Shown here: positions 11,260 to 36,166 of the stretch, piece after piece
Layout of the letters: every line of letters begins with the position of its first letter
How positions within the stretch are numbered: the stretch's first letter is position 1
Source of the DNA: Microbacterium sp.
GTDB taxonomy: Bacteria > Actinomycetota > Actinomycetes > Actinomycetales > Microbacteriaceae
Direction: 5' to 3'
NCBI RefSeq assembly: GCF_031178445.1
Contig: NZ_JAPSIY010000002.1
Coordinates: forward strand, 310,001-374,000
Length of the DNA stretch: 64,000 nt
The notes under the pieces: model-generated
What the model was told of the DNA's origin: nothing
The model's database searches: none
What the model saw: the letters and a program-made list of their open reading frames with translations, nothing else
Program-made: the position numbers and the translations under genes

Positions 11260-11284
11260 TCAAGCACAACGAGGGGGCTTGGGG
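11255..11284 (+). promoter_or_regulatory. Internal promoter and G-rich leader for the co-polymerase gene
   Basis: A near-perfect -10 box TATGAT (11255-11260) overlaps the 3' end of the ligase gene. It is followed by a short leader GAGGGGGCTTGGGG immediately before ATG 11285. The co-polymerase can therefore be transcribed apart from the ligase. No clear -35 was recognised. Confidence 0.5.
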
Positions 11285-16114: not shown

Positions 16115-16158
16115 TATAGTCGAGTCAACGTCGGTTCCGTGGGGGGATCGCCTGGGGA
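16115..16158 (+). promoter_or_regulatory. -10 box TATAGT with two-copy GGGGA leader
   Basis: TATAGT (16115-16120) precedes a leader with TGGGGGGA at 16140 and CTGGGGAG at 16151. The last G-tract is at ribosome-site distance from GTG 16171. It belongs to the set of G-tract leaders in this locus. Confidence 0.5.
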
Positions 16159-17262: not shown

Positions 17263-17342
17263 TACTCTGGCCCTGGAGTGCCTGCGGTGTTCTCGACTCT
17301 ATGGGGGAGTCGTGCCGAGGCAGACAATTGGGGAATACGCTC
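17263..17342 (+). promoter_or_regulatory. Putative -10 box and G-tract leader of the second Tat-protein gene
   Basis: TACTCT at 17263-17268 is the best -10 candidate. The roughly 65-base leader contains ATGGGGGAG (17301) and TTGGGGAA (17328); the second is 8-9 bases before ATG 17343. A second sequence preceding it, TTGCAT, is a weak -35 with short spacing. Confidence 0.4.
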
Positions 17343-20084: not shown

Positions 20085-21208
20085 GATCGCGCCCCACCGC
20101 GCTGCGTCGCGAGTTCCCCCAGCAGCTGCAGGTATCGCTCAGCCGTGGCGCGCCAGGTGAGGTGGATGACCGAATCCCGGCACGCCTGCCGCCACTGCGC
20201 CACCTCGGTGGCGGCGACCGACTCGAGGCGATCGGCTATCTGGCGCGGCTCAGGATCGACCAGGTAGCCGTTGTGGCCGTCGACGATCACCTCTGGCGCA
20301 ACCCCCACCCGAGTCGCGATCACCGGTATGCCGGAGGCCAACGCCTCGGTGATGACGAGACCGTACGACTCATAGGCGCTGGGGAAGGCGAACATGTCGG
20401 CGGCTGCGAACCAGGGCGCCAGGTCGACCTGCGGACCCGCGAACAGCACCCGCTCTGCCACGCCGCGGTCGATTGCGCGCGCCGTCATGCGATTGACGGC
20501 GGAGCGATAGCCGCCGACGACCAGCAGCATCACGGTGGGGGCGTCGACGAGGGCGTCGATCAGCAGCGCCACTCCCTTGCGATCGAGCTCGTGACCGATG
20601 AACAACGCGACCCGATGCTCCTCGTCCAAGGCGAGCCTGGCGCGAGCGGCCTCCCGCTCCACCGGAGTGGGCGGACGGTGCTCCTCGAGGTCCACCCCGT
20701 GCCCGATCACGTGCACGGGCGGGCGCACCCGGCCGTAGGTACGGCGCAGTACTTCGACTTCGCTGTCACACAACGCGACCACAGCGCGGTGCGTGCGGCC
20801 GCGATAGCGGTACCGGTCACGAAGATACGTGAAGACGTGCAGCGGGTTGCGCAGCATCCGCCACAGCATGTGACCGCGCGCCCGCATGGTCTCTGAGACG
20901 ACGCCATGGTTCACGTACACGTCGCCGGCTAGCGCGGCGTTGTGGCAGATCGACACGGCAGACGGATGCTGCGCGAGATGGCGGCGCGCGCGCATCCCGC
21001 CCCGCAGGCTGAAGGAGACCGCAGTGACCAGCCGTCTGAGACGCTGGGCCGTCAGCGAGCGCGGCACCGGATGGCGGCGCCCCAGATCGCCCTCGGTGAG
21101 CGTCTCGGCGGTGTGGCCCATCTCGACGAACTGTCGGTGCAGGTGCCAGGCCACCCCCGAGATACCGCCCCCGCGCCCCATCGTCGGCACGATCTGCACG
21201 ATGTGCAT
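20081..21208 (-). CDS. Glycosyltransferase family 4
   Basis: The protein has 375 residues from 'MHIVQIVPTMGRGGGISG' (ATG 21208 in an ATGA overlap with the fusion gene upstream). The rest of the listed ORF is the fusion gene in another frame. It has 'VYVNHGVVSETMRARGH' in the acceptor half, 'VALFIGHELDRKGVALLIDAL' at the hinge and 'SAYESYGLVITEALASGIPVIA' at the donor site. It is the second gene of the reverse operon. Confidence 0.86.
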   Translation of the reverse strand: MHIVQIVPTMGRGGGISGVAWHLHRQFVEMGHTAETLTEGDLGRRHPVPRSLTAQRLRRLVTAVSFSLRGGMRARRHLAQHPSAVSICHNAALAGDVYVNHGVVSETMRARGHMLWRMLRNPLHVFTYLRDRYRYRGRTHRAVVALCDSEVEVLRRTYGRVRPPVHVIGHGVDLEEHRPPTPVEREAARARLALDEEHRVALFIGHELDRKGVALLIDALVDAPTVMLLVVGGYRSAVNRMTARAIDRGVAERVLFAGPQVDLAPWFAAADMFAFPSAYESYGLVITEALASGIPVIATRVGVAPEVIVDGHNGYLVDPEPRQIADRLESVAATEVAQWRQACRDSVIHLTWRATAERYLQLLGELATQRGGARS

Positions 21209-23169
21209 CAGCCGGCCCCTCGGAAGCGCTTCTCCACTCGCACCGGGCCCAGCCGGTAGAGAGCAGCGCGGCGACGGGCCGCCGTGCCCCGTTCGCCGGG
21301 CAGCATCAGGGAGCGCGCCGTCGCGCCGAGCGCTGCCGCCAGCCGGGCGCTCTGCCAACCCACCGCACCGAAGTGCTTGCGCATGTAACGCTCCTGCGAC
21401 GCGTGGAAATGCGCCTCGCGCCGGCGCGGATCGGTGCTCGTGCCGCCCGCCAGATGCACGGCGTGCACCTCGGGAACGGCCCGATGCCGCCAGCCCAGCA
21501 GGTGCGCGCGGTATGCCCAGTCGGTCTCCTCCGCGTACAGGAAGAAGCGCTCGTCGAATCCGCCCACCTGCTCAAGGGCCTCGGCACGCAGCAGCAGCAC
21601 CGACCCGATCACGAACTGCGGACCGCCGGTCAGCCGTCCCAGACCGACCGCCTCCAGCCAGCTGCGGTGCGGCGCCGGGAACGGCCAGGAGACCCGCGCC
21701 GCATGGCCGGTGTCGTCGACCTGGGCGGGGCCGACGCTCGCGAGATCCGGTTCGGCCCGCAGCGCACTGTGCAGGTGATCGATGCCCGCAGGAGAGATCT
21801 CGGCGTCGGGGTTCAGCAGCAGCACGTCGCCGCCCGGTACCAGGCGGTCGCTGAGCGCCAGGTTCACCGCGGCGCCGAAACCGAGGTTCGCGCCGGCGTC
21901 GCGGTAGCGCACTCCGAGCTCCGCGCACAGGGCTGCGATCTCGGGCAGGGAGGAGTTGTCTATGACTGTGACGGGCAGGTCTGCAACCGGCGCCAGGGCG
22001 CGTCGCAGCATCCCGACCGCTCCGTACGCCACGACGATGACCTCGATCCCTGTGCGGGGCGATCCGGGCGCACGCGCGACCGAGGCGTAGAGCGAGCGGT
22101 AGGCGTCGGCGACCGCCTCCCAGGAACACTGCCGCGCCCGAGCCAGGCCGGCGGCCACCAGCTCCGCTCGGCGGGGTCCGGCGGCCTGCTGCACCGCATC
22201 CGCGAGCGCCTGAGCGTCGCCGGCGGGCACGACGATGCCCGCACCCCCGACCACGTCGGGGAGGGCCCCGGCATCGCTCGAGACCACAGGAATGCCGGCC
22301 GCCATGGCCTCGACCGCCACGCGGCCGAACTGCTCTGTCCATCGGTTCGTGGGGATCGAGGGCACGGCGAGCACATCGATCGTCCGGTAGTAGCCGGCGA
22401 CGTCGTCGGGCGGGATCGCCCCGAGCAGGTCGACTCGCCCCGTGAGCCCGCGCGATCCGATCAGGGTCGGCAGCTCGGCGGCCAGTGGGCCAGCACCTGC
22501 GATCCGGGCACGCAGGTGCGGGCTCGCCCGCAGGGCGTCGAGCAGCGTGAGCACGCCCTTCTCCGGAACGAGCCGTCCGAGCAGCCCCACGACGGCGGCA
22601 TCCGCGCGGGATCCGTCCTCTACGGGCGGCGAGGTCGCGGCGCCGGCATGGGAGATCGGATCGACGCCGAGCGGGATCACCCGCGCCTTCCCCGGGAAGC
22701 CCTTCTCGGTCGCGATGCGCGCGGCCTCGCTGTTGCACGCAGAGATCCCCGCCGCGCTGCGCAGCGCCCAGCGCTCCAGCCAGCGGAACGGCACGGGGTA
22801 GCGCTTGTCGAGGTTCTGCGCGGTGTACAGCACGACGGGTGCGGGGTTGCGCCGCAGCGCGCGCATCAGCAGCACCTGCGCAGTGCTCAGCGCGAACGGC
22901 TCCTCATGCACGTCGATGACGTCCCATCGCTCGCCGAGCGCCCTCCACAGTGGCCGAGGTGCGTAGACGAACAGGGCCGGATGCCGCCCGAAGGCGCGGG
23001 CCGGTCGAACCTGCTCCTCGGGAGCGGCGTCGAGCTCCGCCCAGGCACCGCCTGCGTGCCAGCGCGGCGCCGTGATCAGCGTGACGTCATCGCCCGCGGC
23101 GCGCAGCGCGCGTTCGCGGCCGCGCCACGCGGCGATCGCGGCGCTGTGCGAGATACGCAGCACGCGCAC
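21208..23169 (-). CDS. Two-domain glycosyltransferase fusion (GT4 followed by GT2)
   Basis: One 653-residue chain carries two catalytic units. Residues 1-365 are a GT-B/GT4 domain ('VVGLLGRLVPEKGVLTLLDAL', 'EQFGRVAVEAMAAGIPVV'). Residues about 375-640 are a GT-A/GT2 domain with 'IEVIVVAYGAVGMLRRAL', 'VTVIDNSS', 'VLLLNPDAEISPAG' and 'FDERFFLYAEETDWAYRAHLLG', the rhamnosyltransferase-like pattern. It therefore probably adds two successive sugars. GTG 23169 is preceded by CCTGGGGAGG and heads the operon. Each domain call is firm; coupling of the two reactions is inference. Confidence 0.87.
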   Translation of the reverse strand: MRVLRISHSAAIAAWRGRERALRAAGDDVTLITAPRWHAGGAWAELDAAPEEQVRPARAFGRHPALFVYAPRPLWRALGERWDVIDVHEEPFALSTAQVLLMRALRRNPAPVVLYTAQNLDKRYPVPFRWLERWALRSAAGISACNSEAARIATEKGFPGKARVIPLGVDPISHAGAATSPPVEDGSRADAAVVGLLGRLVPEKGVLTLLDALRASPHLRARIAGAGPLAAELPTLIGSRGLTGRVDLLGAIPPDDVAGYYRTIDVLAVPSIPTNRWTEQFGRVAVEAMAAGIPVVSSDAGALPDVVGGAGIVVPAGDAQALADAVQQAAGPRRAELVAAGLARARQCSWEAVADAYRSLYASVARAPGSPRTGIEVIVVAYGAVGMLRRALAPVADLPVTVIDNSSLPEIAALCAELGVRYRDAGANLGFGAAVNLALSDRLVPGGDVLLLNPDAEISPAGIDHLHSALRAEPDLASVGPAQVDDTGHAARVSWPFPAPHRSWLEAVGLGRLTGGPQFVIGSVLLLRAEALEQVGGFDERFFLYAEETDWAYRAHLLGWRHRAVPEVHAVHLAGGTSTDPRRREAHFHASQERYMRKHFGAVGWQSARLAAALGATARSLMLPGERGTAARRRAALYRLGPVRVEKRFRGAG

Positions 23170-23185
23170 AAGGCCTCCCCAGGGT

Positions 23186-23267
23186 TATGCTGTCTGCAGC
23201 AACCATATCCGCCGCGGAAGTCACTGGGGAGTGCTCCGCGGGGAACGATTCTGGGGATCGATGGGGG
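23186..23267 (+). promoter_or_regulatory. -10 box TATGCT with four-copy GGGGA leader
   Basis: TATGCT (23186-23191) precedes a leader of about 70 bases with G-tracts at 23226, 23240, 23253 and 23263, separated by 10, 9 and 6 bases. This is the densest example of the leader element. The last tracts overlap the ribosome-binding region of ATG 23268. The array could form a G-quadruplex or bind a regulator. Confidence 0.5.
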
Positions 23268-24455
23268 ATGGGAAGCGTATTCACTGGGGACCCACGGCCG
23301 CGCATCGTGCACCTCGACCACACGACGGTCAGGGGCGGCGCGGAACTGGCACTCGTGCGCCTGCTTTCAGCGCGCACCGACTGGCGTGCGGAGGTGCTGC
23401 TGCCCGCATCCGATCCGGACGACGTCTTCGCACTGCTGCCCGCAGACGTCCCCCGGCTCTTCGCCGGCGTGCGCCAGCTGGCCGGTGGGAGCGGAACGTC
23501 GCCCGTGCGGCTCCTCGGCCTCGGTGCGAGACTGACCGCGCAGGCCGCCGCCACCCGGTGGCACCGTGCTGTGCTCCGCAGCGACCTCGTCGTGGCGAAC
23601 AGCACCCGTGCAGCCGCATACGGAGCCCTCGCCGTGCGGGCGTCGGCCCGCCCGTTCGTCGTGCACATCCGCGACATGGTCGACCTTCAGAGCCTCGGCG
23701 CCTTCGGGTACCGGCTGATGACCAGGCTCATCCTGCCCAGAGCCGATGGTGTCGTGGCCAACTCGCGCATCACGCTCGAGAGCGCCCGCCCGTTCGTTCG
23801 CGAGGATGCGGTCGCGGTCAGCATCCCCAGTGCCGCCGGCATCCGCACCGGCGTCGCAGCGAAGCGAGTCGACGGTCCGCTTCGCATCGGGATGCTCGCC
23901 CGCATCGACCCCTGGAAGGGTCAGCGCGAGCTCCTCGAAGCCTTCGCGCTCGCCTTCCCCGATGGTGACGCGCAGCTCGAGCTCGTCGGCGGTGCTCCGT
24001 TCGAGCATGAGGACTTCGCAGGCGCACTGCGACGCCGTGCGACGGAACTGGGCGTCGCCGCGCGCGTGCACCTGCCCGGCCACGTCGACGACACCGCCGC
24101 GCGCATCGCGACGTGGGACATCGCCGTGCAGTACTCCACGCGGCCGGAGCCGCTCGGGCAGAACGTGCTGCAGTATCTCGCGGGTGGCGCGGCGACGGTG
24201 GTCGCGGACGAGGGCGGGCCGACCGAATGGGTCGACGACGGACGGAACGGCCTGCGGGTGCCCCCACGCAGCATCCCGCAGCTCGCCGAGGCACTGCGGC
24301 GGCTGGACGCCGACCCTGACCTGCGCTCACGGCTGTCGGCTCTAGCCCTGCGTACGCCGGGACTGATGGACGACGACGCCGTCGCACGAGCGCACGGCGA
24401 GGCATACGGAGAGGTGCTCACCCGCCGGAGACAGAGCGCGAAAGCCCTAAGCTGA
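23268..24455 (+). CDS. Glycosyltransferase family 4
   Basis: This is a 395-residue GT-B protein from ATG 23268. It has 'IVHLDHTTVRGGAELALVRLL' at the start, 'VVHIRDMVDLQSLGAFGY', 'IGMLARIDPWKGQRELLEAF' and the donor site 'TRPEPLGQNVLQYLAGGAATVV'. The ORF track start at 23187 would lie inside the G-rich leader and is not used. It heads a forward block with a nucleotidyltransferase, a PqqD-like protein and a MauE fusion, although the nucleotidyltransferase also has its own promoter. Confidence 0.86.
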   Translation: MGSVFTGDPRPRIVHLDHTTVRGGAELALVRLLSARTDWRAEVLLPASDPDDVFALLPADVPRLFAGVRQLAGGSGTSPVRLLGLGARLTAQAAATRWHRAVLRSDLVVANSTRAAAYGALAVRASARPFVVHIRDMVDLQSLGAFGYRLMTRLILPRADGVVANSRITLESARPFVREDAVAVSIPSAAGIRTGVAAKRVDGPLRIGMLARIDPWKGQRELLEAFALAFPDGDAQLELVGGAPFEHEDFAGALRRRATELGVAARVHLPGHVDDTAARIATWDIAVQYSTRPEPLGQNVLQYLAGGAATVVADEGGPTEWVDDGRNGLRVPPRSIPQLAEALRRLDADPDLRSRLSALALRTPGLMDDDAVARAHGEAYGEVLTRRRQSAKALS

Positions 24456-24460
24456 CGCCG
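24448..24460 (+). promoter_or_regulatory. Leaderless promoter TAAGCT-N6-GTG
   Basis: TAAGCT ends six bases before the GTG of the nucleotidyltransferase gene, so transcription should begin at the start codon itself. It overlaps the last codons of the preceding glycosyltransferase. Confidence 0.55.
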
Positions 24461-25320
24461 TGGGAGCCATCAAGGAGACGCCGATCCCGCTGGCGGTGCG
24501 GATCGAGCTGTGCCGCGCGGGCGTGCAGGTGATCGCCGACCGGCTCGGCATCCGGATGCTGCACATCAAGGGCACCACCGTCGACCGATCGATCCGCCCC
24601 AAGACACGCAACGGCAGCGACGTCGACATCATCGTGGATCCGGCAGCGGTGGGCATTCTGCACGAAGCACTGCTGGCGCACGACTGGCAGGTGTACAGCT
24701 CCTTCGAAGACGGCTCGCCGTTCGGCCACGCCCAGACGTACTGGAACAGCGACTGGGGCTACATCGACCTGCACCGCCGGTTCCCCGGCATCGGGCTCGC
24801 CGACGACAGCGCCTTCGAATTGCTGTGGGATCAGCACTCGACCGTGGTCGCGGCAGGGCGCGAGATCGCCGTGCCCTCCGTCACCGCACAAGCGGCGCTG
24901 TACGTGCTCAACGCGGCACGCGGCAGCACGAACGACCGGGCAGAGGCGCATCGTTTCCATCGCGCGCTGGCCGTCGATGAGCGCCTCAGACTGGACCTGC
25001 TGATCGACCGTCTGGACGCAGTGGTGGCCGCTGCCGTCGTCTCAGGGGAGTTGCAGCGGCACCGGCGGCGCGCTGAGTATCTGCTCTGGAAGACGGTCTC
25101 CGAGGGAGGGACCCGCACCCAGGAATGGTGGGGGAGGGTGCGCGCCGCGCGCTCGTGGCGTGAGGCGCTGCACATCATGATGCGGGCTCCGCGGGTGAAC
25201 CGCAGCAGGCTCGCGCACCAGCTCGGACATGCTCCTACTCGCCTCGACGTGTTCCGCGCCGCGATGACGCGGGCGCGCGTCGCGGTCGGGGAACTGCTGC
25301 CGCGAAGGAGCAGGGGATGA
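24460..25320 (+). CDS. NTP_transf_5-type nucleotidyltransferase family protein, copy 1
   Basis: The 286 residues contain the nucleotidyltransferase signature 'MLHIKGTTVDRS' and 'RNGSDVDIIVDP' near residues 27-60, followed by 'WGYIDLHRRFPGI' as the third acidic strand. This matches the uncharacterised NTP_transf_5 (PF14907) type, whose members often stand beside HprK-like kinases and PqqD-like proteins and are known as tailoring genes in some lasso-peptide clusters. The C-terminal third is helical and Arg-rich. It is leaderless and overlaps the next gene by ATGA. A second copy lies at 36167. Substrate unknown. Confidence 0.72.
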   Translation: MGAIKETPIPLAVRIELCRAGVQVIADRLGIRMLHIKGTTVDRSIRPKTRNGSDVDIIVDPAAVGILHEALLAHDWQVYSSFEDGSPFGHAQTYWNSDWGYIDLHRRFPGIGLADDSAFELLWDQHSTVVAAGREIAVPSVTAQAALYVLNAARGSTNDRAEAHRFHRALAVDERLRLDLLIDRLDAVVAAAVVSGELQRHRRRAEYLLWKTVSEGGTRTQEWWGRVRAARSWREALHIMMRAPRVNRSRLAHQLGHAPTRLDVFRAAMTRARVAVGELLPRRSRG

Positions 25321-25535
25321 GCCGCCTCGTGCGGGCGGCGGACGTCGGCGCCGTCGACGACGGGTCCCGCATATACGCCGCTGTCCTGCCGGACGGGCCG
25401 ATCTTCGTGCTGGCCGACGATGCGGCCGAGGTCTGGCGGGCCGTCGAGCGGCGCGACGGCGACATCCCGGCAGCCGACGAGAACGTCGCGGCCCTCGTGC
25501 AGGCCGGGCTGCTCACACTCGAGGAGGACACCTGA
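25317..25535 (+). CDS. PqqD-like (RiPP recognition element) small protein, copy 1
   Basis: This 72-residue protein has the PqqD pattern: two N-terminal beta strands ('RIYAAVLPDGPIFVLADDAAEVWRAV') and a short winged-helix part ending 'VAALVQAGLLTLEEDT'. PqqD proteins bind leader peptides of ribosomally made, modified peptides. It overlaps the nucleotidyltransferase by ATGA and shares a base with the next gene (TGATG), so it is co-translated with both. The sequence is short and divergent; the call rests on pattern plus context. Confidence 0.6.
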   Translation: MSRLVRAADVGAVDDGSRIYAAVLPDGPIFVLADDAAEVWRAVERRDGDIPAADENVAALVQAGLLTLEEDT

Positions 25536-26530
25536 TGCCCATGGCACTGACCATCACCCCCGCACTGATCGTCGCGGCCGTCCTGCTCGTCAGCGGAGTG
25601 GCCAAGCTGCGCACACCCGACGACGAGGCGGGGTGGACCGAACTGGGAGTTCCGGCAGCGCTGAGGCGTGGCTGGCTGATGCGGCTGCATCCGTTCGCCG
25701 AGATCGCGCTCGCCCTGGCGCTTGCACTGCTCGGCGGCGTCCTCGGCGTCCTCGCCGCCGTCGCCGCAACCCTGCTCTTCGCGGTGTACCTCGTGATGAT
25801 CTGGCGCGCCAGGAAGCAAACACCCGATGCCTCCTGCGCATGCTTCGGCGAGCGCAAGCCCATCACGGTGCGCACGCTGCTGCGCAACGGATGGCTGGTG
25901 CTGCTGTCGGGTCTGGCAGCGGCCACGATCGGCGTGAGCCCGCTCTTGGGCGGTGTTGTCGCTCTCGCCCTGCCGAATTGGAGCTGGCTGCTCGCGCTCG
26001 CCGCCGTCGCAGTGACGTTCGTGCTGGTGCATCAGCCCGCTCCGTCGGCATCCTCGCCGGACGACACGTCAGTGCCCGCACCGACGGCCGCGGATGATCT
26101 CGACGACTACATCCGCACTCGCACGCCGGCCGTGCCGGTTCAGCTCGGCGACGGCACCACCGTCAACCTGCGCACCCTCTCTGCGCGTGCGCCGATCCTG
26201 ATCCTCGCGGTCTCGGAGACGTGCGGTTCGTGCACGCCCGTGATCGAGAGTGCCGAGCATTGGCGGACCCTGCTTCCGGAGGTCTCCGTGCGGCTCCTGC
26301 TGCGTGCGACGCCTGAGCAGAGCACACTGACGAGCAGCGTGGAGCCGCAGACCCTGCATGATCCGCAAGGGTACGTGCGTGACTCGATCGCCGAGTGGCC
26401 CACACCCACAGCCGTGCTGCTGGGTGCCGACGGGCTTCTTGCCGGGGGGCCCGTCAGCGGCCACCCTGACATCCAGGAGTTCGTCGCCGACATCTACGAG
26501 TCCTTGCACGGCGTCCGGCCGCCCGTCTGA
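25535..26530 (+). CDS. MauE/DoxX-type membrane protein fused to a thioredoxin-like domain
   Basis: The protein has 331 residues. The first 170 hold four to five membrane helices with the MauE motif 'ASCACFGERKPIT', in which two Cys face a redox site. After a Pro/Ser linker, residues about 205-320 form a thioredoxin-like domain with 'SETCGSCTPVIESAEHW' as the CxxC site and a cis-Pro region 'EWPTPTAVLLG'. Such pairs pass electrons across the membrane for disulfide formation or reduction outside the cell. It is the last gene of the block. A redox partner could be the Cys-containing Tat protein at 17343, which is inference. Confidence 0.78.
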   Translation: MPMALTITPALIVAAVLLVSGVAKLRTPDDEAGWTELGVPAALRRGWLMRLHPFAEIALALALALLGGVLGVLAAVAATLLFAVYLVMIWRARKQTPDASCACFGERKPITVRTLLRNGWLVLLSGLAAATIGVSPLLGGVVALALPNWSWLLALAAVAVTFVLVHQPAPSASSPDDTSVPAPTAADDLDDYIRTRTPAVPVQLGDGTTVNLRTLSARAPILILAVSETCGSCTPVIESAEHWRTLLPEVSVRLLLRATPEQSTLTSSVEPQTLHDPQGYVRDSIAEWPTPTAVLLGADGLLAGGPVSGHPDIQEFVADIYESLHGVRPPV

Positions 26531-26566
26531 CCGCCACCGGATCGAGGGCGGGTCGCGACCGTCGTA

Positions 26567-26640
26567 CCACCATCGAACCGGCGCGCCACCATCGAACCGA
26601 CGTCGGTTGCTTGGTGGGGTGCGGGTTGCTTGGTGGCGCG
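26567..26640. repeat. 74-bp nested-hairpin repeat, left copy
   Basis: The element holds two direct copies of CCACCATCGAACC, followed by two direct copies of GGTTGCTTGGTGG. The second unit is the reverse complement of the first except for a central 3-base mismatch, so the whole element folds into nested stems with 3x3 internal loops. The right copy at 27788 matches at 70 of 74 positions by my count. The rest of the gap 26641-26734 holds TCCACAG/CTGTGGA inverted boxes and the start region of the next gene. Confidence 0.85.
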
Positions 26641-26734
26641 CGTTCCCTTCCACAGGCTTAGGGATTCGCGGCGGGATCCATCCGAGACTGTGGACAACGC
26701 GTCATGGGCGCTCCGGTAGGGGCAACGTGGACGG

Positions 26735-27769
26735 ATGGGGTCGAATCCACAGCCGCCGAAGCGCGCGATCACGCTGGCGGACGCCGAACGGATGCTGCGC
26801 TCGGCGGGCGATCTGCTTGCAGCAGGGGCGACGGAGCGCCGCATCCGTCAACGCGTGGCTGAAGGCGTTCTGGTGCGGATACGTCGCGGGCACTATGCGA
26901 CGGCCGAGGACTGGCGGCGCCTCTGGCCGGAGGGACGCCACCTGATGCGGGTACTCGCGGTCTGCCGAGACGCGGCGACTGCGCCAGTGCTCTCTCACGT
27001 CTCCGCCGCCGTGGTGCATGGGTTTCCGCTGTATCGGCTGGCTCCGACTCGCGTTCATGTGACCGTCCCGTCACCGTCGCATGCGGCGAGCGTCCCGGAT
27101 GTTCTGCGTCACGAACTTCCTCTCGACGACACCGATGTCGTGGAGATCGGCCCGTTTCGTCTGACCGGCTTGAACCGCACCGCGATCGACGTGGCGCGTA
27201 CCCTGCGGCTGGAGGCTGCGCAATCGATCGCGGATGCGGCGCTTCGGCGGGTGGCGGTCACGGGGCACCGACAGGATGCCGACGCCGCCGGCGTGTGGCG
27301 TGAAGATCTGCACTATCGCCTTGAGCGTCTGCGTGGACGTCCGGGCGTACGCCGGGCGCGCGATGTCGTGGATTTCGCCGACGGCCGGGCGCAGCTGCCC
27401 GGCGAGAGCGTGAGCCGATTGCGGCTGAGGAGGCTGGGGTTCCGCGAAGTGCAGCTGCAAGTCCCGGTGACGGGCCCGGGCGGGAACGAGTTCTTCATCG
27501 ACTTCGGACTCGACGAGATCGACGCCTACGGTGAGTTCGATGGAATGGGGAAGTATGTCGATCCCGTGCTCCGCGGCGACAAGCACATCGAGGAGACGGT
27601 GCTGAGCGAAAAGCGCCGGGCAGACTGGGTGCACGGCACGACCGGAAGACGGATGCTGCGCTGGGAGAGCGAGCACATCGCGACGGTCCATTCGTTCGCC
27701 GCGCGGCTCGCCGCGTTCGGCGTGCCTCTCACGTCGGACCTGCAGCTCGACCGTCGTCGGCTGCGCTGA
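26735..27769 (+). CDS. AbiEi-like antitoxin-domain protein with C-terminal nuclease-like domain (DUF559 type)
   Basis: The 344 residues begin with a winged-helix region like the AbiEi N-domain ('GATERRIRQRVAEGVLVRIRRGHYA'). They continue with the middle domain 'VLSHVSAAVVHGFPLYRL' and end with a restriction-like fold, 'FFIDFGLDEIDAYGEFDGMGKY' with acidic residues and 'RMLRWESEHI'. Solitary genes of this type are common in actinobacteria, and no partner AbiEii toxin is adjacent. The gene is flanked by 74-bp repeats and interrupts the polysaccharide locus, so it looks like a separate cassette. Activity is not established. Confidence 0.72.
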   Translation: MGSNPQPPKRAITLADAERMLRSAGDLLAAGATERRIRQRVAEGVLVRIRRGHYATAEDWRRLWPEGRHLMRVLAVCRDAATAPVLSHVSAAVVHGFPLYRLAPTRVHVTVPSPSHAASVPDVLRHELPLDDTDVVEIGPFRLTGLNRTAIDVARTLRLEAAQSIADAALRRVAVTGHRQDADAAGVWREDLHYRLERLRGRPGVRRARDVVDFADGRAQLPGESVSRLRLRRLGFREVQLQVPVTGPGGNEFFIDFGLDEIDAYGEFDGMGKYVDPVLRGDKHIEETVLSEKRRADWVHGTTGRRMLRWESEHIATVHSFAARLAAFGVPLTSDLQLDRRRLR

Positions 27770-27787
27770 GCGAAGAAAGCGCGCGTG

Positions 27788-27861
27788 CCACCATCGAACC
27801 GGCGCGCCACCATCGAAACCACGCCGGTTGCTTGGTGGGGCGCGGGTTGCTTGGTGGCGCG
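27788..27861. repeat. 74-bp nested-hairpin repeat, right copy
   Basis: Direct repeat of the element at 26567 with four differences, three of them in the central loop. It begins 18 bases after the AbiEi-like stop codon and could also act as a terminator between two convergent genes. The remaining bases 27862-27899 show nothing else. Confidence 0.85.
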
Positions 27862-27899
27862 GGAACTGCAGTCGTCGTCGAGGACCGAGCGGCGGGACG

Positions 27900-29420
27900 T
27901 CAGTACGCGCCGCGGCCGCAGACCAGAGTGCGGAGGGTGCGCCAGAGGATGACCAGGTCACCGGTGAGCGACCAGTTCTCGACGTAGTAGAGGTCGAGTC
28001 GCACGCTGTCCTCCCAGGAGAGGTCGGAGCGGCCGCTGACCTGCCAGAGACCGGTTATTCCGGGCTTGACCAGCAGGCGACGCTGATCCCAGTCCTCGTA
28101 GTTCTCGACCTCGCTGAGCAACGGCGGGCGCGGGCCCACCAGCGACATATCGCCTCGCAGCACGTTCCACAGCTGAGGCAGTTCGTCCAGGCTGTGGCGG
28201 CGCAGGAAAGCGCCGATGCGTGTGACCCGCGGGTCACGACGCATCTTGAACAGCATCCCGTTGCCGTCGGAGAACTCGAGCAGGCCTTCGAGCATGTGCT
28301 CGGCGCCAGGCACCATCGACCGGAACTTCACCAGCCGGAACCGCCGTCCGTCCAATCCGATGCGTTCCTGGACGAAGAGCGCGGGACCGCCATCGGTACG
28401 CACGAGCACCGCGATCAGTGCCATCAGCGGCAGGAGAAGTAGGAGAGCGATCGCGGATGCTGAGATGTCGAAGGCGCGCTTGGTCGCGTACCGGATGCCG
28501 GTGAACTCGGTATAGTCCACATGGATGAGCGACAGACCCGCGACGGGCCGCGCGTGGATGCGCGGCCCGGCGATGTCGGTGAGCGCCGCGGCGACGATGA
28601 GGTCGATGCTTCGCGACTGCAGCTCCCAGCCGAACTGCCTCAGTCGAGGGGGAGAGATCAGATCGGAGCCGCTGTACACGACGGCGTCGGCACGGGCCGA
28701 CTCGATGGCCGGAAGCAGGGCGTCGAGGTCCCCGAGCACGGGAACGCCGGGAAGCAGCGTGCCCGAACCACGCTCGGTCACCGCACCGACGATCTGGTAG
28801 CCGACGGTGAGATCGCGCTGCACCTCACGGGCGATGTGCTGAGATTTCCCGTGCTCGCCCACCAGCACGACGCGGGTGAGGAAGCGGCCCTGAGCGCGTT
28901 GCGCCCTGAGCCAGCCGCGCCACAGCCACCGGCCGGCGATGAGAAGGACCACCCCCGCGGGCAGCGCGAGCAGCAGGTATGCCCGTGCGACTTCGATGTG
29001 CAGGAGGAATGCGGCGATCGTGAGGACCCCGAATACGCGGATGCTGGCATCGGCGATCCGACGGTACTCCTGCGTACCCGTTCCCACCGTCTTGGCGTCG
29101 CGTGTGCCGTAGCCGTGCAGCGCCAGAAGCCACGCGATCGCGAAGATCACCGAGACGAAGGTGTATCCGAGCGTGAAGCTGTCGCCGCTGAATCCCGGGA
29201 TGAACAGGCTCGCCCTGTCCTGCCCGAAGCGAAGCAGCTGCGCGCCGAATACGGCGGCGACGACGATCGCCACATCCGTGAAGAAGAGTCGTCGGCGGTA
29301 GGACGCGTGCCAGTCGTGCTCGATCGGAGCCGCGGTTGGCGCGGGCAACGCACGAAGTCGTCCATGACGGTTCAGTCGAGCGTTCCCCAGCGGCACGCCC
29401 AACGGTTCGGATACAACCAC
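27900..29420 (-). CDS. Polyprenyl-phosphate sugar-phosphotransferase initiating polysaccharide synthesis
   Basis: This enzyme moves a sugar-1-phosphate onto undecaprenyl phosphate, the first committed step. The 506 residues contain four N-terminal membrane helices, a nucleotide-binding-like middle domain ('LVGEHGKSQHIAREV'), a fifth helix ('AIALLLLLPLMALIAVLV') and the catalytic WbaP/PglC domain. That domain shows 'FVQERIGLDGRRFRLVKFRSM', 'RHSLDELPQLWNVLRGDMSLVGPRPPL' and 'KPGITGLWQVSGRSDLSW'. The start is uncertain: GTG 29420 follows GGGGAGGGG, while GTG 29483 would add 21 residues. Promoter TACAAT lies at 29538. Confidence 0.9.
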   Translation of the reverse strand: MVVSEPLGVPLGNARLNRHGRLRALPAPTAAPIEHDWHASYRRRLFFTDVAIVVAAVFGAQLLRFGQDRASLFIPGFSGDSFTLGYTFVSVIFAIAWLLALHGYGTRDAKTVGTGTQEYRRIADASIRVFGVLTIAAFLLHIEVARAYLLLALPAGVVLLIAGRWLWRGWLRAQRAQGRFLTRVVLVGEHGKSQHIAREVQRDLTVGYQIVGAVTERGSGTLLPGVPVLGDLDALLPAIESARADAVVYSGSDLISPPRLRQFGWELQSRSIDLIVAAALTDIAGPRIHARPVAGLSLIHVDYTEFTGIRYATKRAFDISASAIALLLLLPLMALIAVLVRTDGGPALFVQERIGLDGRRFRLVKFRSMVPGAEHMLEGLLEFSDGNGMLFKMRRDPRVTRIGAFLRRHSLDELPQLWNVLRGDMSLVGPRPPLLSEVENYEDWDQRRLLVKPGITGLWQVSGRSDLSWEDSVRLDLYYVENWSLTGDLVILWRTLRTLVCGRGAY

Positions 29421-29543
29421 AACCCCTCCCCAGAGGATTGGTTCGAGACCTGTGTCGTGGTTGCGACCACGTTCACAGATCACTCGCCACTGCCCCAGCA
29501 GCGGCGACCTCCCCTCCCACAGGGGAGCCCCACCCGAATTGTA
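29421..29543 (-). promoter_or_regulatory. Promoter TACAAT and long G-rich leader of the initiating transferase
   Basis: On the reverse strand TACAAT (29538-29543) is followed by about 110 bases with repeated G-tracts, including GTGGGAGGGGAGG, CTGGGGCAG and CTCTGGGGAGGGG just before GTG 29420. A GTGGGGC/CTCCCC pairing could sequester part of it. The segment 29544-29605 holds nothing recognisable. Confidence 0.5.
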
Positions 29544-29605
29544 GGCCGATCAGCTCGAGATGGATAGTCCTCGATCAGGATGGGCCGCTTCGCGTTCGTA
29601 TGGAG

Positions 29606-30331
29606 TCAGAGTCCGCTCCAGCGGCTGACAGGCCAGAGAATCACCGCGGCCTTGCCCACGATCTGGTCGCTCCGGGCCCAACGCCAGCATCCATCCGCAT
29701 CCGCACCCTGAGAGCGGCAGGCCACGGCACCGTCCGCGGAAGCCGAGCGGTGGTCTCCCAGCACCAGGTAGGAGTCGTCCGGCACGGTGACCTCTGGCAG
29801 GCACCGTGACGATGCCGGGGTGGTCGTGCAGTCGAGTTCACCCTCGGTGAACGGCAGGTCCTCGAAGACGTACGGCTCATCGAGCGGTTCGCCGTCGACG
29901 ATCAGCCGCCCGTCTGCCGTGCAGCACGACACCGTCTGGCCGGGACCCGCGATCACCCTTTTGATCAGAGTGTGCGGACCCGAGGGGCCGAAGCCGGTGA
30001 CCTCTCCGGCCCAGCGCAGGACGGACTTCAGGGGTCCGTCGTCTGCCGAACCATCGGGTCCCCATGTCTCGTCGGCGTCGAACACGATGACGTCTCCGGT
30101 GCTGGGTGCGGAACCGACGAACGCCAGCCGATTCACGAGCACACGATCGCCCGGATGCAGGGTCTGCTCCATCGAGCCGGATGGCACGTAGTACGGCTTG
30201 GCGACGAAAGACAGGATCAGGCCGACCAGCACGAACGCGGCGACGAGGTGGAACAGGGTGCTCCCGGTGATGCGCCGCCACAGCGGACGGGGGGCGGCGG
30301 GGTCGGAGGTCACAGCCCAATCCTGCCCCAT
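29606..30331 (-). CDS. lepB: Signal peptidase I
   Basis: This serine-lysine protease cleaves signal peptides of exported proteins at the outer face of the plasma membrane. The 241 residues have one N-terminal membrane anchor (about 25-47), the catalytic serine in 'YYVPSGSMEQTL' near residue 54, the catalytic lysine in 'HTLIKRVIAGPG' near 122, and box E 'YLVLGDHRSASADG'. A pair of Cys before the lysine box ('VSCCTADG') is notable. It stands alone inside the polysaccharide locus and could process the Tat-exported proteins nearby, which is inference. Confidence 0.92.
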   Translation of the reverse strand: MGQDWAVTSDPAAPRPLWRRITGSTLFHLVAAFVLVGLILSFVAKPYYVPSGSMEQTLHPGDRVLVNRLAFVGSAPSTGDVIVFDADETWGPDGSADDGPLKSVLRWAGEVTGFGPSGPHTLIKRVIAGPGQTVSCCTADGRLIVDGEPLDEPYVFEDLPFTEGELDCTTTPASSRCLPEVTVPDDSYLVLGDHRSASADGAVACRSQGADADGCWRWARSDQIVGKAAVILWPVSRWSGL

Positions 30332-30403
30332 CGCCCGCCGGATCGCCTCAGCAAGGATGCCGCATGCGCGCCGACCGAAGTCGTAGAAGCCTTCGGCGAA
30401 GAT

Positions 30404-30468
30404 ATGATCGTCTTCGAAGCGCTGACGGTCGGGGCCGCGCGCTCACTGGGGATCTGGGGAGGTCCGTC
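30404..30468 (+). promoter_or_regulatory. -10 box TATGAT with three-copy TGGGGA leader
   Basis: TATGAT (30404-30409) is followed by TGGGGA at 30447, 30455 and 30470. The segment GGGGAGG at 30456-30462 is an ideal ribosome site for TTG 30469. The third tract is inside the first codons. Confidence 0.5.
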
Positions 30469-31344
30469 TTGGGGAACGTGATCGATGTCAGCGCTGTGCT
30501 GCGCCTGATCGGCGGCGATGGGGGCAGGCCCACGGCTGCGCGACGTCACCGCAGCATCCTCGTGACCAGCCACACCTTCGACGGCCGAGCCGATTGGATG
30601 TGGAATGCGCAGCCGGAAGGGGGTGACGCGATCGCAGGGCTGGCCTTCGCGGATGCTCCGCTGAGAGTGCGCCGGGGCGCGGACGTCGTGGAGATCGCCG
30701 TCGGGGAAGCGTCATTCCTGCATCCGCACCGTGCCGCGACCATTGAGACCGTCGCGCCGGGGACGGGTATGTCCGTCTGGCTGCCGTGGGATTCCCTTCA
30801 GGAGGTCGAGAACGGCGTGCAGACGCCCGGCCATGTCATGTCACCGACGCCACTGACCGCAGGGCTGAAAGCCTTTCTCACCTCCCTGCTCACTCAGCAG
30901 GAGACACCCACGCTGTACACCGACTATCTCGTCGAGCGCGTCGTCGTCGAGATGGCGTTCGGCGTGCTGCTCGAATCCGTGCCGAAGAACGTCAGCGGCG
31001 CCCGCGACTCTCGCTCCATCGACCGCGCACGTTCGCTGATGCTGCTGAGGCGATCCGACCCGGACTTCGGCGTGGCCGAGCTGGCCGGTGAGCTGCACAT
31101 CTCGACGCGGCATGTGCAGCGGCTCTTCGCCGCGGAGAACAGCTCGCCCGCCGATGAGCTGCGCGGCATGCGCATCGAGTTGGCGAACGAGCTGCTGGGT
31201 GATCCGGCCTACGATCCGCTGACTGTCGCAGAGCTTGCACTGCACGCCGGATTCAAGACGCCGGCAGCGCTGAGAAGAGCGTTCGCGAGCCGCGACCTGT
31301 CATTGCCCGATCGTGCGCGCCGGAACCGGGTGTCGACCAGCTGA
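30469..31344 (+). CDS. AraC-family transcriptional regulator, copy 1
   Basis: The protein has 291 residues if TTG 30469 is used (GGGGAGG six bases upstream); GTG 30478 is the alternative. Residues about 185-280 are the AraC double helix-turn-helix ('FGVAELAGELHISTRHVQRLF', 'YDPLTVAELALHAGFKTPAALRRAF'). The N-half is a cupin-like AraC-binding-like domain resembling the AraC_binding_2 group. It is clearly paralogous to the reverse gene at 34835. It lies directly upstream of a Tat-exported protein gene, a likely target. Confidence 0.85.
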   Translation: MGNVIDVSAVLRLIGGDGGRPTAARRHRSILVTSHTFDGRADWMWNAQPEGGDAIAGLAFADAPLRVRRGADVVEIAVGEASFLHPHRAATIETVAPGTGMSVWLPWDSLQEVENGVQTPGHVMSPTPLTAGLKAFLTSLLTQQETPTLYTDYLVERVVVEMAFGVLLESVPKNVSGARDSRSIDRARSLMLLRRSDPDFGVAELAGELHISTRHVQRLFAAENSSPADELRGMRIELANELLGDPAYDPLTVAELALHAGFKTPAALRRAFASRDLSLPDRARRNRVSTS

Positions 31345-31492
31345 AGGCTGTTTCGCGACAGGTTCGGTGAAAAACGCGACATCTGCGTTGAGCGGTTCGT
31401 GAGCGTCCCCGGAGTATCGGACCGGTGCGGCGGCGACGCTGCACAGCACATTGAGTGCGACACCACTGGGAACGCAGCCGAGGGGCATGAAC

Positions 31493-32098
31493 ATGAACGA
31501 GAACGAGAACGCGCGAGCACCGCGACACATCGACCGCCGCACCGTCGTCAAGGGAGCCGCATGGTCGGTGCCGGCGATCGCCGCCGCCGTGGCCATGCCC
31601 ATGGCGACCGCGTCGCAGAGCACCGCTCAGATCCGCATCTACGCCGACTGCCTGCTGAGCGTGGCGGGCGTCAACATCGGCCGCGGCTTCTTCGTAGAAA
31701 ATCAGGGCACCGTCGCCTATGACGGGAACATCACCGTCACCGAGACGATACGGCTTTCGGGCCTCGCGGCGGTGGCGGCCGTCGCGCTGTGGCCGATCCT
31801 CGCGGTGCAGGGCATCCTCGGCGGGTCGACCAGCGGCGTGACCAGGGGATCCTGGAGTGGCAACATCCTCTCCACGACCCGCTCGCGCACGGTGACCATC
31901 GCCGGACCCCTGGCCGCCGGCGGTCAGCGCAGCTGGGGAATCGCACTCGACGCGATCAGCGGCGTGCTCGGCGTCCTGGACCTGGTCGGCCTCGCGGGAA
32001 TCACCCACACCGCGGTCATCACGAGCCCGACCGGTAACCCGCCGGTGGTCAAGGACTCCGACGCGATCAACTGGGAGCTCATCTCCACCAGCTGCTGA
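31493..32098 (+). CDS. Small Tat-exported protein, unknown function
   Basis: The protein has 201 residues from ATG 31493, seven bases after GAGGGG; ATG 31487 would add two residues. The signal 'DRRTVVKGAAWSVPAIA' is nearly the same as that of the proteins at 9623 and 17343. The mature region starts after 'ATASQS' and is Gly/Ser/Thr-rich with a hydrophobic stretch 'LAAVAAVALWPILAVQGILGG' that might be membrane-associated. It contains Cys near the start and at the very C-terminus. No known domain. A strong terminator follows. The 148-base gap upstream shows no clear promoter. Confidence 0.7.
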   Translation: MNENENARAPRHIDRRTVVKGAAWSVPAIAAAVAMPMATASQSTAQIRIYADCLLSVAGVNIGRGFFVENQGTVAYDGNITVTETIRLSGLAAVAAVALWPILAVQGILGGSTSGVTRGSWSGNILSTTRSRTVTIAGPLAAGGQRSWGIALDAISGVLGVLDLVGLAGITHTAVITSPTGNPPVVKDSDAINWELISTSC

Positions 32099-32115
32099 GT
32101 TCGGCGCGAGCCGAA

Positions 32116-32147
32116 GACAGGGCCCCTTCCTCGGAGGGGGCCCTGTC
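32116..32147 (+). terminator. Strong hairpin terminator after the Tat-protein gene
   Basis: Arms GACAGGGCCCC and GGGGCCCTGTC with a 10-base loop, 18 bases after the stop codon. No T run follows, as is usual in high-GC actinobacteria. Confidence 0.75.
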
Positions 32148-32211
32148 GCACGTTCAGCACCGGCATCGCGTCTGCGCGCGGCCGAGCAGCGTCCGACTGC
32201 TAGATTCAGAG

Positions 32212-32249
32212 GCACTGTTGCGTTGTCAAGACGAGGGGTACACACGCAC
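32212..32249 (+). promoter_or_regulatory. -10 box TAGATT for the second co-polymerase gene
   Basis: TAGATT (32212-32217) is followed by a short leader containing GACGAGGGGTAC. The GAGGGG lies about 11 bases before ATG 32250. Only one G-tract is present here. Confidence 0.4.
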
Positions 32250-33776
32250 ATGGAGTTGAGGGATTACCTGCGCATCTTCCGTGCGCACTGGCTGGGCATG
32301 GCGCTCATCATCGTGGGCGCCGTGGTCGCAGCCTTCGGATGGACCCTCATCCAGCCCAAGGTGTACACCGCCGACGCCACCGCGATCGTCCGTGCGGCGG
32401 GCACCGAGGACCTCGGCATGGTCTCCCTCGGCAACAACATCGCGAACCAGCGGGTGAAGACTTACGTCGAACTCGGCTCGTCACGAGCCGTCGCCAACCG
32501 CGTGATCGAAGAACTGGCACTGAAGCAGTCTCCCGAGGCGCTCGTCGGGCAGGTGTCGGTCACCAACCCGCTCGACACCACCTCGCTTCAGGTCACCGCT
32601 GACGCATCGAGCCCCGAGCAGGCACGAGACATCGCGGAAGCATGGGTGCGCGCCATGTCGGCCGAGGTCAACGTCATCGAGACCGACGATGCTGCGACGC
32701 AGGGGGCCGTCTTCCTGCGCCCTGTCGACTCCGCGAGGCTGCCTAGCAGCCCGTCGTCCCCGAACACGCGGCTCGCGCTCGCGATCGGTGCTCTGGCCGG
32801 CCTCGCGCTCGCCGTCGGGTACGGTCTGCTGCGCTACACGCTCGATCGCCGCATCCGCTCGGTCGAATCGGTCGAGCGTGAAACCGGCGTCGCCGTGGTC
32901 GGTACCGTCCCCGAAGAGAAGACCTTCACACCGGACAACCGGCTCATCCCGTTCGACGGCGGCAACTCATCCGGCAGCGCCAACGCGCATCTCTTCCCGA
33001 TCGCGGAGGCGATGCGGGAGCTGCGCACGAACATACAGTTCATGGACGTCGACAACCCGCCGCGTGTGATGGTGGTCACCAGCCCGCTCCCCGGCGACGG
33101 CAAGTCGACGACCGCGTCCAACCTGGCGATCACGCTCGCGTCCAGCGGCCAGAAGGTGGCGCTGATCGACGGCGACCTGCGTCGCCCGATGGTCGACACG
33201 ATCTTCGGTCTGCCGAAGGGCGCCGGACTCTCCGACGTGCTCGCCGGCCGCGCCGAGCTCGCGGATGTGGCTCACCGCGTGGGCGGCAACGGCAGGCTGC
33301 TGGTGATCGGTGCGGGGAAGATTCCGCCGAACCCCAGTGAGGTGCTCGGATCTGCCCGCATGAAGGAGCTGCTTGAGGCGATCTCTCGCGAGGCGATCGT
33401 CATCATCGACGCGCCGCCGCTGGTGCCGGTGACAGATGCCGCCGTGCTCACGAACAGCGCCGACGGAGCGATCATCGTCGCGACCGTGGGTAAGACCACC
33501 TATGAGGTGCTGGGCAAGGCTCTCGGCAATCTCGAGCGCGCCGGCGCCCGCGCCCTCGGGATCGTGCTGAACAGGGTACCGCGCCGGGGCAGCGGAGCCG
33601 CGTATTACGGCTACCAGTACCACGGTGACTACTACCGGGCTGAGGAGCCCGAGACGCAGACTCCGCTCGCCGGCGCGGCCGACTTCGTCGCACGACTCGG
33701 CAACAGCGACCCGTCAGACGTCGAGGCCGTCGACGCGAACGGGCCGCGCCGCCGTAGCACGCACCGGTCGTCGTGA
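32250..33776 (+). CDS. Polysaccharide co-polymerase/BY-kinase fusion (Wzz-Wzc type), copy 2
   Basis: The protein has 508 residues with the same layout as the gene at 11285: Wzz region between membrane helices near 16-35 and 175-195, then the kinase with Walker A 'SPLPGDGKSTTASNLAI', A' 'VALIDGDLRRPM' and B 'AIVIIDAPPLVPVTD'. Unlike copy 1 it has a real C-terminal tyrosine cluster, 'AAYYGYQYHGDYYRAEE', the expected autophosphorylation site. Its phosphatase is probably the enzyme at 37113. ATG 32250 is preferred over the ORF start 32223. It overlaps the next gene by 4 bases. Confidence 0.92.
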   Translation: MELRDYLRIFRAHWLGMALIIVGAVVAAFGWTLIQPKVYTADATAIVRAAGTEDLGMVSLGNNIANQRVKTYVELGSSRAVANRVIEELALKQSPEALVGQVSVTNPLDTTSLQVTADASSPEQARDIAEAWVRAMSAEVNVIETDDAATQGAVFLRPVDSARLPSSPSSPNTRLALAIGALAGLALAVGYGLLRYTLDRRIRSVESVERETGVAVVGTVPEEKTFTPDNRLIPFDGGNSSGSANAHLFPIAEAMRELRTNIQFMDVDNPPRVMVVTSPLPGDGKSTTASNLAITLASSGQKVALIDGDLRRPMVDTIFGLPKGAGLSDVLAGRAELADVAHRVGGNGRLLVIGAGKIPPNPSEVLGSARMKELLEAISREAIVIIDAPPLVPVTDAAVLTNSADGAIIVATVGKTTYEVLGKALGNLERAGARALGIVLNRVPRRGSGAAYYGYQYHGDYYRAEEPETQTPLAGAADFVARLGNSDPSDVEAVDANGPRRRSTHRSS

Positions 33777-34816
33777 ACGACTTCGTCGACATCGACGTGC
33801 TCGGTGTTCGGATTCGAGTCGAGTACGCAGACGATCTTGACTCGTCGCAGCGCCGCACGGCATCGGACGCATGGTCCGGAGCCAGGAGCGAAGGCGTCGG
33901 CGAGGCGGATCTCAGCAGGACGTTCTCTGCAGGCGCGGACTTCGAACGGGCGATGGAACGGCTCACCGTCGACGTGACCCTGTCGGCGTTGGACGCGCTC
34001 CGCGGCCGAGCGCTGATGTTCCACGCTGCCGGCGTCGCCGACGAATCGGGGCGGGTGGCCGCCTTCGTCGGACCCTCCGGGCGCGGCAAGACCACACTCA
34101 GTCGCGAGCTGGGGCGCCACTGCGGATACGTCTCGGACGAGACCATCGCCGTCGACGCCGAGCTGAACGTCTTCCCCTATCGCAAGCCGCTGTCCGTGGT
34201 GCGCGCCGCGAAGCCGAAGCAGCAGGTCTCACCGGACGAGGCGGGGCTGCGAGGGCTGCCCCAGGCGCCGTTGCGGCTCGCGTCTCTGGTGCTGATCGAG
34301 CGGGACGCCGCGCTGTCGGCACCCGAGATCGCGCCGCTGCCGCTCGTCGACGCGCTGCCCGAACTCGTGCCGCAGATGAGCTACCTGCGTGACCAGGAGC
34401 GTCCCCTGCGCGCGATCGCGGTGCTCTGCGACGCCATAGGCGGCGTGCGCAGGCTGCGATACCCGGAAGCTGCCACGGTGCCCCCTCTGCTGCCGGAGCT
34501 GTTCGCGACGCCTCCGACGGTCCATGAGTGGCAACCGGCACCCACCCCCGCCGAGTCAGGACCCTACGACGCCTCCGGAGTCGACGACGCCATCCTCACC
34601 GACGGGCACGTGATCGTGATGGCGCACTCGATGTTGCACGTGCTCGACGGCATCGCACCTGTCGTATGGACCGAAGCGGCGGCGGGGCGGGATCTCGACG
34701 GCATCGTCGACGTCGTCGTCGAGCAGCACGGAGCTCCGCCGCAGGGCAGCGCTCACGAACTGGTCGCCGCGGCCGTCGACGAGCTCATCGACGCCGGAGT
34801 GCTGAGCCGCCGCTGA
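33773..34816 (+). CDS. HprK-like kinase
   Basis: The 347 residues contain the P-loop 'AFVGPSGRGKTTLSREL' near residue 105, and 'YVSDETIAVDAELNVFPYRKPL', which matches the HPr kinase/phosphorylase core (Walker A then S-D-[DE]). The N-terminal HPr-binding half of true HprK and a PTS system are not seen. Similar truncated kinases occur with PqqD-like and nucleotidyltransferase proteins and can phosphorylate peptides in some lasso-peptide clusters. It overlaps the co-polymerase stop by GTGA, so it is translated with it. Target unknown. Confidence 0.75.
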   Translation: MNDFVDIDVLGVRIRVEYADDLDSSQRRTASDAWSGARSEGVGEADLSRTFSAGADFERAMERLTVDVTLSALDALRGRALMFHAAGVADESGRVAAFVGPSGRGKTTLSRELGRHCGYVSDETIAVDAELNVFPYRKPLSVVRAAKPKQQVSPDEAGLRGLPQAPLRLASLVLIERDAALSAPEIAPLPLVDALPELVPQMSYLRDQERPLRAIAVLCDAIGGVRRLRYPEAATVPPLLPELFATPPTVHEWQPAPTPAESGPYDASGVDDAILTDGHVIVMAHSMLHVLDGIAPVVWTEAAAGRDLDGIVDVVVEQHGAPPQGSAHELVAAAVDELIDAGVLSRR

Positions 34817-34834
34817 CGCCCGACGCGCCAACGG

Positions 34835-35731: not shown

Positions 35732-35790
35732 AGTGGGGGACGACGTTGGGGGACAGCGGCGATCGCCGCTGGCAAGCCGCGAATACTCGC

Positions 35791-35804
35791 TAGGCTACCA
35801 ATCG
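35791..35804 (+). promoter_or_regulatory. Leaderless promoter TAGGCT-N7-GTG
   Basis: TAGGCT (35791-35796) lies seven bases before GTG 35804, predicting a leaderless mRNA for the second PqqD-like gene. Just upstream, 35731-35755 has two TGGGGGA motifs. Confidence 0.55.
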
Positions 35805-36091: not shown

Positions 36092-36166
36092 ATCGACCGT
36101 GAGACGGGCGGCGTGCGCCGCAGCTGCACCGGCAGCAGTATGTTCGACACGACGGGAGGGGATGCT

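Follow-up and report, generated by a model that had tools for sequence, protein, structure and literature searches.

Why should the genes of a single polysaccharide locus carry several copies of the same G-rich word in their leaders? The question is raised by a 64,000-nucleotide stretch of a Microbacterium genome (hereafter the window), in which (T)GGGG(G)A is repeated in front of genes that Pfam assigns to a Wzy ligase, a ParA-like co-polymerase, GT2 and GT4 glycosyltransferases, an initiating transferase, a PqqD-like protein and an AraC-family regulator, as well as in front of an Hsp70-like gene. Judging from sequence and structure modelling, we consider it likely that the (C)TGGGGA words mark where a trans-acting small RNA (sRNA) family, encoded elsewhere in the genome, binds the mRNA leaders. 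Nearly all of the sites given in the original prediction lie where it had placed them. Two of them held in part: a G-rich site does occur before ugd at 8855-8842 on the minus strand, but it reads GGGGAGGGGA rather than TGGGGA and is the weakest member, and the ligase site at 9810 is present with copies that are degenerate. The PqqD-like gene at 35828 is an additional member. The sites are as follows.

8842-8856, minus strand: ugd, site CGGGGAGGGGA at Shine-Dalgarno distance, degenerate and an uncertain member.
9809-9832, plus strand: Wzy/O-antigen ligase leader, three degenerate copies (GGGGGA, CTGGGG and TGGGGA).
11279-11285, plus strand: co-polymerase gene, a single copy, TTGGGGA (TGGGGA at 11280), abutting the ATG.
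16115-16158, plus strand: GT2 leader, with a -10-like TATAGT at 16115-16120 and copies at 16140 and 16153.
17302-17334, plus strand: leader of a Tat-type secreted protein, with copies at 17302 and 17329 (the Shine-Dalgarno); ATG at 17343.
23176-23181, minus strand: a lone copy, CTGGGGAGG, as Shine-Dalgarno of the glycosyltransferase gene that runs divergently at 21208-23169.
23186-23191, plus strand: -10-like hexamer TATGCT of the GT4 gene, read directly and conserved in genome G254.
23224-23290, plus strand: GT4 leader and first codons, four copies (TGGGGA at 23225, 23252 and 23285; TGGGGGA at 23262).
29384-29389, minus strand: CTGGGGA in the first codons of the initiating sugar-transferase gene; TATCTGGGGA is similarly placed in loci L111 and L112.
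29420-29543, minus strand: initiating sugar-transferase leader, with a TACAAT box at 29543-29538, a hairpin loop CTGGGGC at 29498-29492 and the start GTG at 29420.
29427-29432, minus strand: Shine-Dalgarno copy of the initiating transferase, CTCTGGGGAGGGG.
30403-30408, plus strand: -10-like hexamer TATGAT of the AraC-family regulator, read directly.
30446-30475, plus strand: AraC leader, three copies, at 30447, at 30455 (overlapping the Shine-Dalgarno) and at 30470 (overlapping the likely TTG start at 30469).
35734-35819, plus strand: leader of the PqqD-like gene, three copies, at 35734, at 35747 and, as Shine-Dalgarno, at 35813.
62884-62930, minus strand: Hsp70-like gene leader, with TATAGT at 62930-62925; ATG at 62876.
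62908-62902 and 62889-62884, minus strand: Hsp70-like leader copies, the former in the hairpin AGCT-TGGGGG-AGCT and the latter forming the Shine-Dalgarno.

The likely start of the GT4 gene is the ATG at 23268, with the copy at 23252 as its Shine-Dalgarno. In the PqqD-like leader, the copies at 35734 and 35747 sit upstream of a TAGGCT box and are therefore perhaps outside the transcript. No part of the window matched Rfam. Genes for MauE, PqqD-like, NTP_transf_5 and signal-peptidase proteins were seen beside the sugar genes at 24460-37069, which suggests that the polysaccharide is linked to a module for peptide modification or secretion.

Leader statistics were collected from the window and forty 20-kb stretches, 864 kb in all or 26% of the 3.37-Mb genome, with gene starts taken from a simple home-made codon-score caller. 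A sense TG4-6A word was found between -110 and +20 of the start in 12 of 53 window genes and in 22 of 711 genes elsewhere (Fisher p = 6e-7), bearing out the original view that the motif is common to the polysaccharide genes. Leaders with at least two copies numbered seven among the 53 window genes and none among the 711 others (p = 5e-9), so that the multi-copy motif proved not to be as frequent before random genes, an outcome that would have spoken against a shared regulon. Dinucleotide-shuffled window leaders gave 0.07 +/- 0.26 multi-copy genes, with a maximum of two. The raw total of TGGGGA in the window was only mildly in excess (34 vs 25 +/- 5), and the stretches on either side of it were nearly empty, with copies before none of 32 genes at 270-310 kb of the same contig (C14) and one of 14 at 374-394 kb. 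From the enrichment, the shuffles and the near-empty flanks, it follows that the motif array is a property of the locus and not of the genome; the multi-copy arrays are specifically confined to the polysaccharide locus and the Hsp70-like gene. Genome-wide hexamer enrichment in the sampled leaders put TGGGGA only about two-fold above expectation in leaders generally, and a genome-wide regulon was therefore rejected in favor of a locus-specific one. Moreover, in window leaders and relatives' loci 46-49% of G-runs have a T before them, vs 19% elsewhere, and 27-35% vs 6% are flanked by both T and A, so the word is more than a bare G-run.

A whole-genome pattern search for paired TGGGGA returned the window leaders together with intergenic loci that carry TCCCCA in consecutive hairpin loops. 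One of these is the predicted sRNA-1 (G000:C25:178765-178914). With its predicted paralogue sRNA-2 (C10:418817-418949) it makes at least two conserved members in the genome of the window, both terminator-ended, with hairpin loops reading UCCCCAG, the exact complement of CUGGGGA. The sRNA-1 locus (L012) was matched in 27 of 59 congeners. It has a conserved promoter, CTGACA-17-TACCAT, a long-range closing stem, the hairpins GCCA-TCCCCAG-TGGC and CAGCG-TCCCCAG-CGCT, and a terminator, AGGGCCCTCTCGAGT...CCCCAGTCCCCAATGG...ACTCGAGAGGGCCC, whose own loop holds CCCCAGTCCCCAA. Throughout the family the loops, that of the terminator included, read UCCCCAG or GUCCCCAA, and the terminator hairpin is strong and in places followed by a T-rich tract. 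When congeners were aligned, the stems of sRNA-1 varied between species groups with the loops invariant, and RNAalifold gave 20 consensus pairs, seven of them with compensatory changes. The RNA strand is fixed as that of the UCCCCA loops because of the G-U pairs, as where G-C and G-U occur at 13:7, and because of the promoter. sRNA-2 was recovered independently by a covariance model in the same genome (E = 1.9e-9).

With the covariance model, 17 of 20 chosen congeners gave family members, while G248, G049 and G043 gave no sRNA hit; the terminator loop and stem pattern occurred in 56 of 119 Microbacterium genomes, at about 80 sites vs three for the reversed control. A 150-genome draw across the bacterial family returned this genome and one congener, with no match in other genera under strict filters, and neither sRNA-1 nor sRNA-2 reached the threshold of any family in Rfam 15. 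As in the class of antisense sRNAs with C-rich loops, we found a free-standing gene with a predicted promoter and intrinsic terminator, and invariant, single-stranded C-rich loops on variable stems; the sRNA loops are predicted to be unpaired at 0.65-0.74, vs 0.13-0.23 for other C residues. In one genome, G248, the Hsp70-like leader has motif copies yet the covariance model found no sRNA, so that either a diverged sRNA was missed there or another factor uses the sites.

Predicted pairing of the loop AUCCCCAGU with each of six leaders gave -12.4 to -15.1 kcal/mol; in single-sequence folds, several of the GT2, Tat and AraC copies were not clearly exposed. We suggest that the sRNA loop (A)UCCCCAG(U) would pair over 7-9 bases with CUGGGGA. 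One copy per mRNA usually lies over the Shine-Dalgarno or start codon, where pairing would block ribosome binding, and this overlap makes ribosome occlusion the simplest outcome. The upstream copies, some of them in hairpin loops, would give a multi-loop sRNA further places to dock and raise its avidity. The result would be coordinate post-transcriptional control, most likely repressive, of the polysaccharide locus, the AraC regulator and the Hsp70-like gene. Since the leader words exactly match the complement of the sRNA loops, a few sRNAs probably control the whole sugar-coat gene set together. Expression of the sRNAs, direct contact with the leaders, repression and multivalence are all steps that we infer.

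The extra copies had originally been attributed to an operator, an RNA-binding protein or RNA structure. Structure does enter, in that some copies lie in hairpin loops, but overall the data favor antisense pairing with sRNAs. CsrA/RsmE leaders have several GGA sites, some in loops and one over the Shine-Dalgarno, and CsrB-type sponges exist. The site arrays in the Microbacterium leaders are similarly disposed, and an unknown RNA-binding protein with CsrA-like logic might bind UGGGGA in leader hairpin loops and repress translation. The hexaloop-like display of some copies (AGCT-TGGGGG-AGCT; CTG-CTGGGG-CAG), together with a copy over the Shine-Dalgarno, does resemble CsrA targets. However, strict CsrA control was set aside because the CsrA domain (PF02599) is absent from the genome, while three control genomes gave a match. 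Moreover, the conserved sRNAs, on the strand fixed by their G-U pairs and promoter, bear the complement UCCCCAG and not the motif itself, as a protein sponge would. We therefore regard repression by such a protein as improbable, although a protein could help the sRNAs in addition.

Still less probable is a DNA-binding regulator that uses the repeats as operators near the promoter. Several variably spaced copies do lie close to promoters, and the set includes an AraC-family gene. The copies, however, are consistently in the sense orientation, most of them between the -10-like hexamer and the start or within the first codons, overlapping the Shine-Dalgarno, start or first codons, and their spacing is irregular; the operator offered in the original prediction fits poorly with this fixed orientation and position in the transcript. 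Stem covariation around a leader copy is, in addition, a property of RNA. In the initiating-transferase leader, the hairpin that displays the upstream CTGGGGC in its loop has a different stem sequence in each species, yet the stem still pairs: across five sequences, one of which needs a one-base shift of register to pair, 85.7% of cells were paired and three of seven pairs had changed on both sides, while the best slid control reached 60%.

A similarly small chance attaches to ribosome binding alone, with the word as an unusual Shine-Dalgarno variant duplicated by chance or through a recent common origin of the leaders. The last copy is commonly at Shine-Dalgarno distance, and CTGGGG was enriched between -20 and -1 in the sample (11 vs 3.2 expected). 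However, other genes use AAGGAG or GGAGG as their Shine-Dalgarno, and seven genes have extra copies between -19 and -105, with no multi-copy leader among the 711 other genes, which upholds the earlier contention that Shine-Dalgarno pairing does not explain them. The copies also persist in diverged orthologues: CTGGGG remains in the orthologous leaders of congeners while the flanks drift. G254 keeps three CTGGGGA copies before GT4, and the AraC leader CTGGGGAGGTC...TGGGGA is kept in four genomes, among them G254, G212 and Microbacterium sp. USTB-Y (L104). Several G-rich copies are kept in the Tat-protein leader in G254, G223, G014, G217 and G219, and most genes for Tat-type proteins in relatives are preceded by two or three CTGGGG copies. 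In the Wzy leader of G217 and G219, three CTGGGG words stand at -25, -15 and -6, the same place as the degenerate copies of the window. The Hsp70-like gene belongs to the set, as first proposed, since its orthologues (39-45% identity; L189 and L190) retain a TATAGT box and, after it, copies of CTGGGGA or GGGGGA. The Shine-Dalgarno copy of the initiating transferase, CTCTGGGGAGGGATTGTG, is nearly fixed across relatives, and in the PqqD-like leader only that at 35813 is clearly kept in G254. The motif doubles as a weak Shine-Dalgarno, and part of its conservation may serve ribosomes.

RNA G-quadruplexes, formed from the G-runs and regulating translation, might be imagined for the GT4 leader with its up to four GGGG runs, but are extremely unlikely given that many members have just two runs, that the flanking T and A are selected, that a covarying stem-loop holds at least one copy, and that the conserved complementary loops of the sRNAs would be left unexplained.

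Antisense pairing with C-rich loops, the reading that we prefer, has precedents. The sX13 sRNA of Xanthomonas has three C-rich loops and represses mRNAs that bear up to three GGGG motifs near the start, and mutations proved that loop and GGGG motifs are both needed for repression (PMC3771888). sRNA-1 and sRNA-2 would likewise set C-rich loops against G-rich copies near starts. However, the flanks and positions of the sX13 motif are not conserved, whereas in Microbacterium the CTGGGGA word is fixed and clusters in a single biosynthetic locus; sX13 also belongs to another phylum and has no kinship in sequence or model to either sRNA. Its model (RF02232; gathering 50 bits) did not match sRNA-1 or sRNA-2, and gave a chance-level match of 21.7 bits at L010. 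At that locus (1480-1545), the hairpin GGCCGCCGTGC-TCCCCA-GCACGGCGGCC lies just behind a minus-strand gene and is a possible 3'-UTR source of a UCCCCA loop. C-rich loops aimed at the G-tracts of ribosome sites are also a feature of ar14 and other anti-Shine-Dalgarno sRNAs of alphaproteobacteria. The Microbacterium sRNAs share that design, but ar14 comes from another phylum and its score of 21.5 bits vs 58.8 is sub-threshold and at chance level.

Closer in phylogeny is the actinobacterial 6C/B11 RNA (RF01066), whose C-rich loops, including the terminator loop, pair with G-tracts near ribosome sites. The same pairing logic has been proved there by mutation (PMC10470900, PMC12395582): B11/6C regulates eccB4 in M. 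abscessus (PMC10470900), and 6C/B11 represses surface lipooligosaccharide genes in M. marinum (PMC12395582). 6C differs, however, in having two hairpins whose loops contain at least six C, vs UCCCCA(G) or GUCCCCAA in sRNA-1 and sRNA-2, and its model (gathering 47 bits) matched neither of them at E up to 10. 6C was also rejected by model as the partner of the leaders, with no match in the whole genome at E <= 0.001.

A more detailed model is possible, although we advance it tentatively and at rather less than even chances. The paralogous sRNAs, each with at least three near-identical UCCCCA loops, may engage CUGGGGA arrays two to four sites long, in part loop-to-loop, in almost every transcription unit of a single polysaccharide locus and also in a regulator gene and a chaperone gene. 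How strongly a gene is controlled would depend on how many sites its leader has and how they are displayed, and sRNAs and arrays would be maintained together in about half of the genus, an association across genomes for which the statistics ignore phylogeny. No trans-acting sRNA was found described for Microbacterium in the literature that we searched. The work turns a leader motif into a concrete RNA circuit, with an sRNA family absent from Rfam 15 and a probable Microbacterium regulon. If true, control of surface glycans by C-rich loops would reach beyond the mycobacterial 6C/B11 into another lineage of actinobacteria, where the sRNA is unrelated, and the circuit would be a natural case of multivalent antisense regulation through site arrays.

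Several other loci came up in the course of the analysis. TGGGGA-loop hairpins follow a TAGACT box at L014:590-690 (G000:C27), about 500 bp ahead of the gene for ribosomal protein S10, rpsJ; a sponge, or an sRNA read from the opposite strand, is conceivable, but their role as a leader or UGGGGA-loop sponge was rejected since they are not conserved in 58 congeners. Three UCCCCA-loop hairpins and a strong final stem at L004:1470-1610 (G000:C14:159.3-159.5 kb) had no full-length homologue in 58 congeners and are kept only as a candidate third sRNA of this genome. Pattern matches at L001, L003 and L011 were set aside, being within or beside coding sequence. Directly behind sRNA-2, in tandem with it, lies a diverged 6C-like RNA, its TGACGCACCCTCCGGTCGTC core conserved and a loop reading CCCCCC, at L098:1703-1763 (G000:C10; 25.0 bits) and at L159:1717-1777 (G243:C1; 31.4 bits), both scores being under the Rfam gathering value of 47. 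Between the two RNAs there is a conserved near-perfect palindrome of the type ATTTGTCCCCCAAATGGGGGACAAAT, at about 1650-1677 in L098 and at the same place in L043, L045, L158, L159 and L161, which may serve as a terminator or an operator. The sRNA family has a third paralogue, seen at different loci in G013 (L163) and G025 (L157); that in L163 stands upstream of a gene that reads as glmS in its first codons, which we take to encode glucosamine-6-phosphate synthase, an enzyme feeding sugar precursors.
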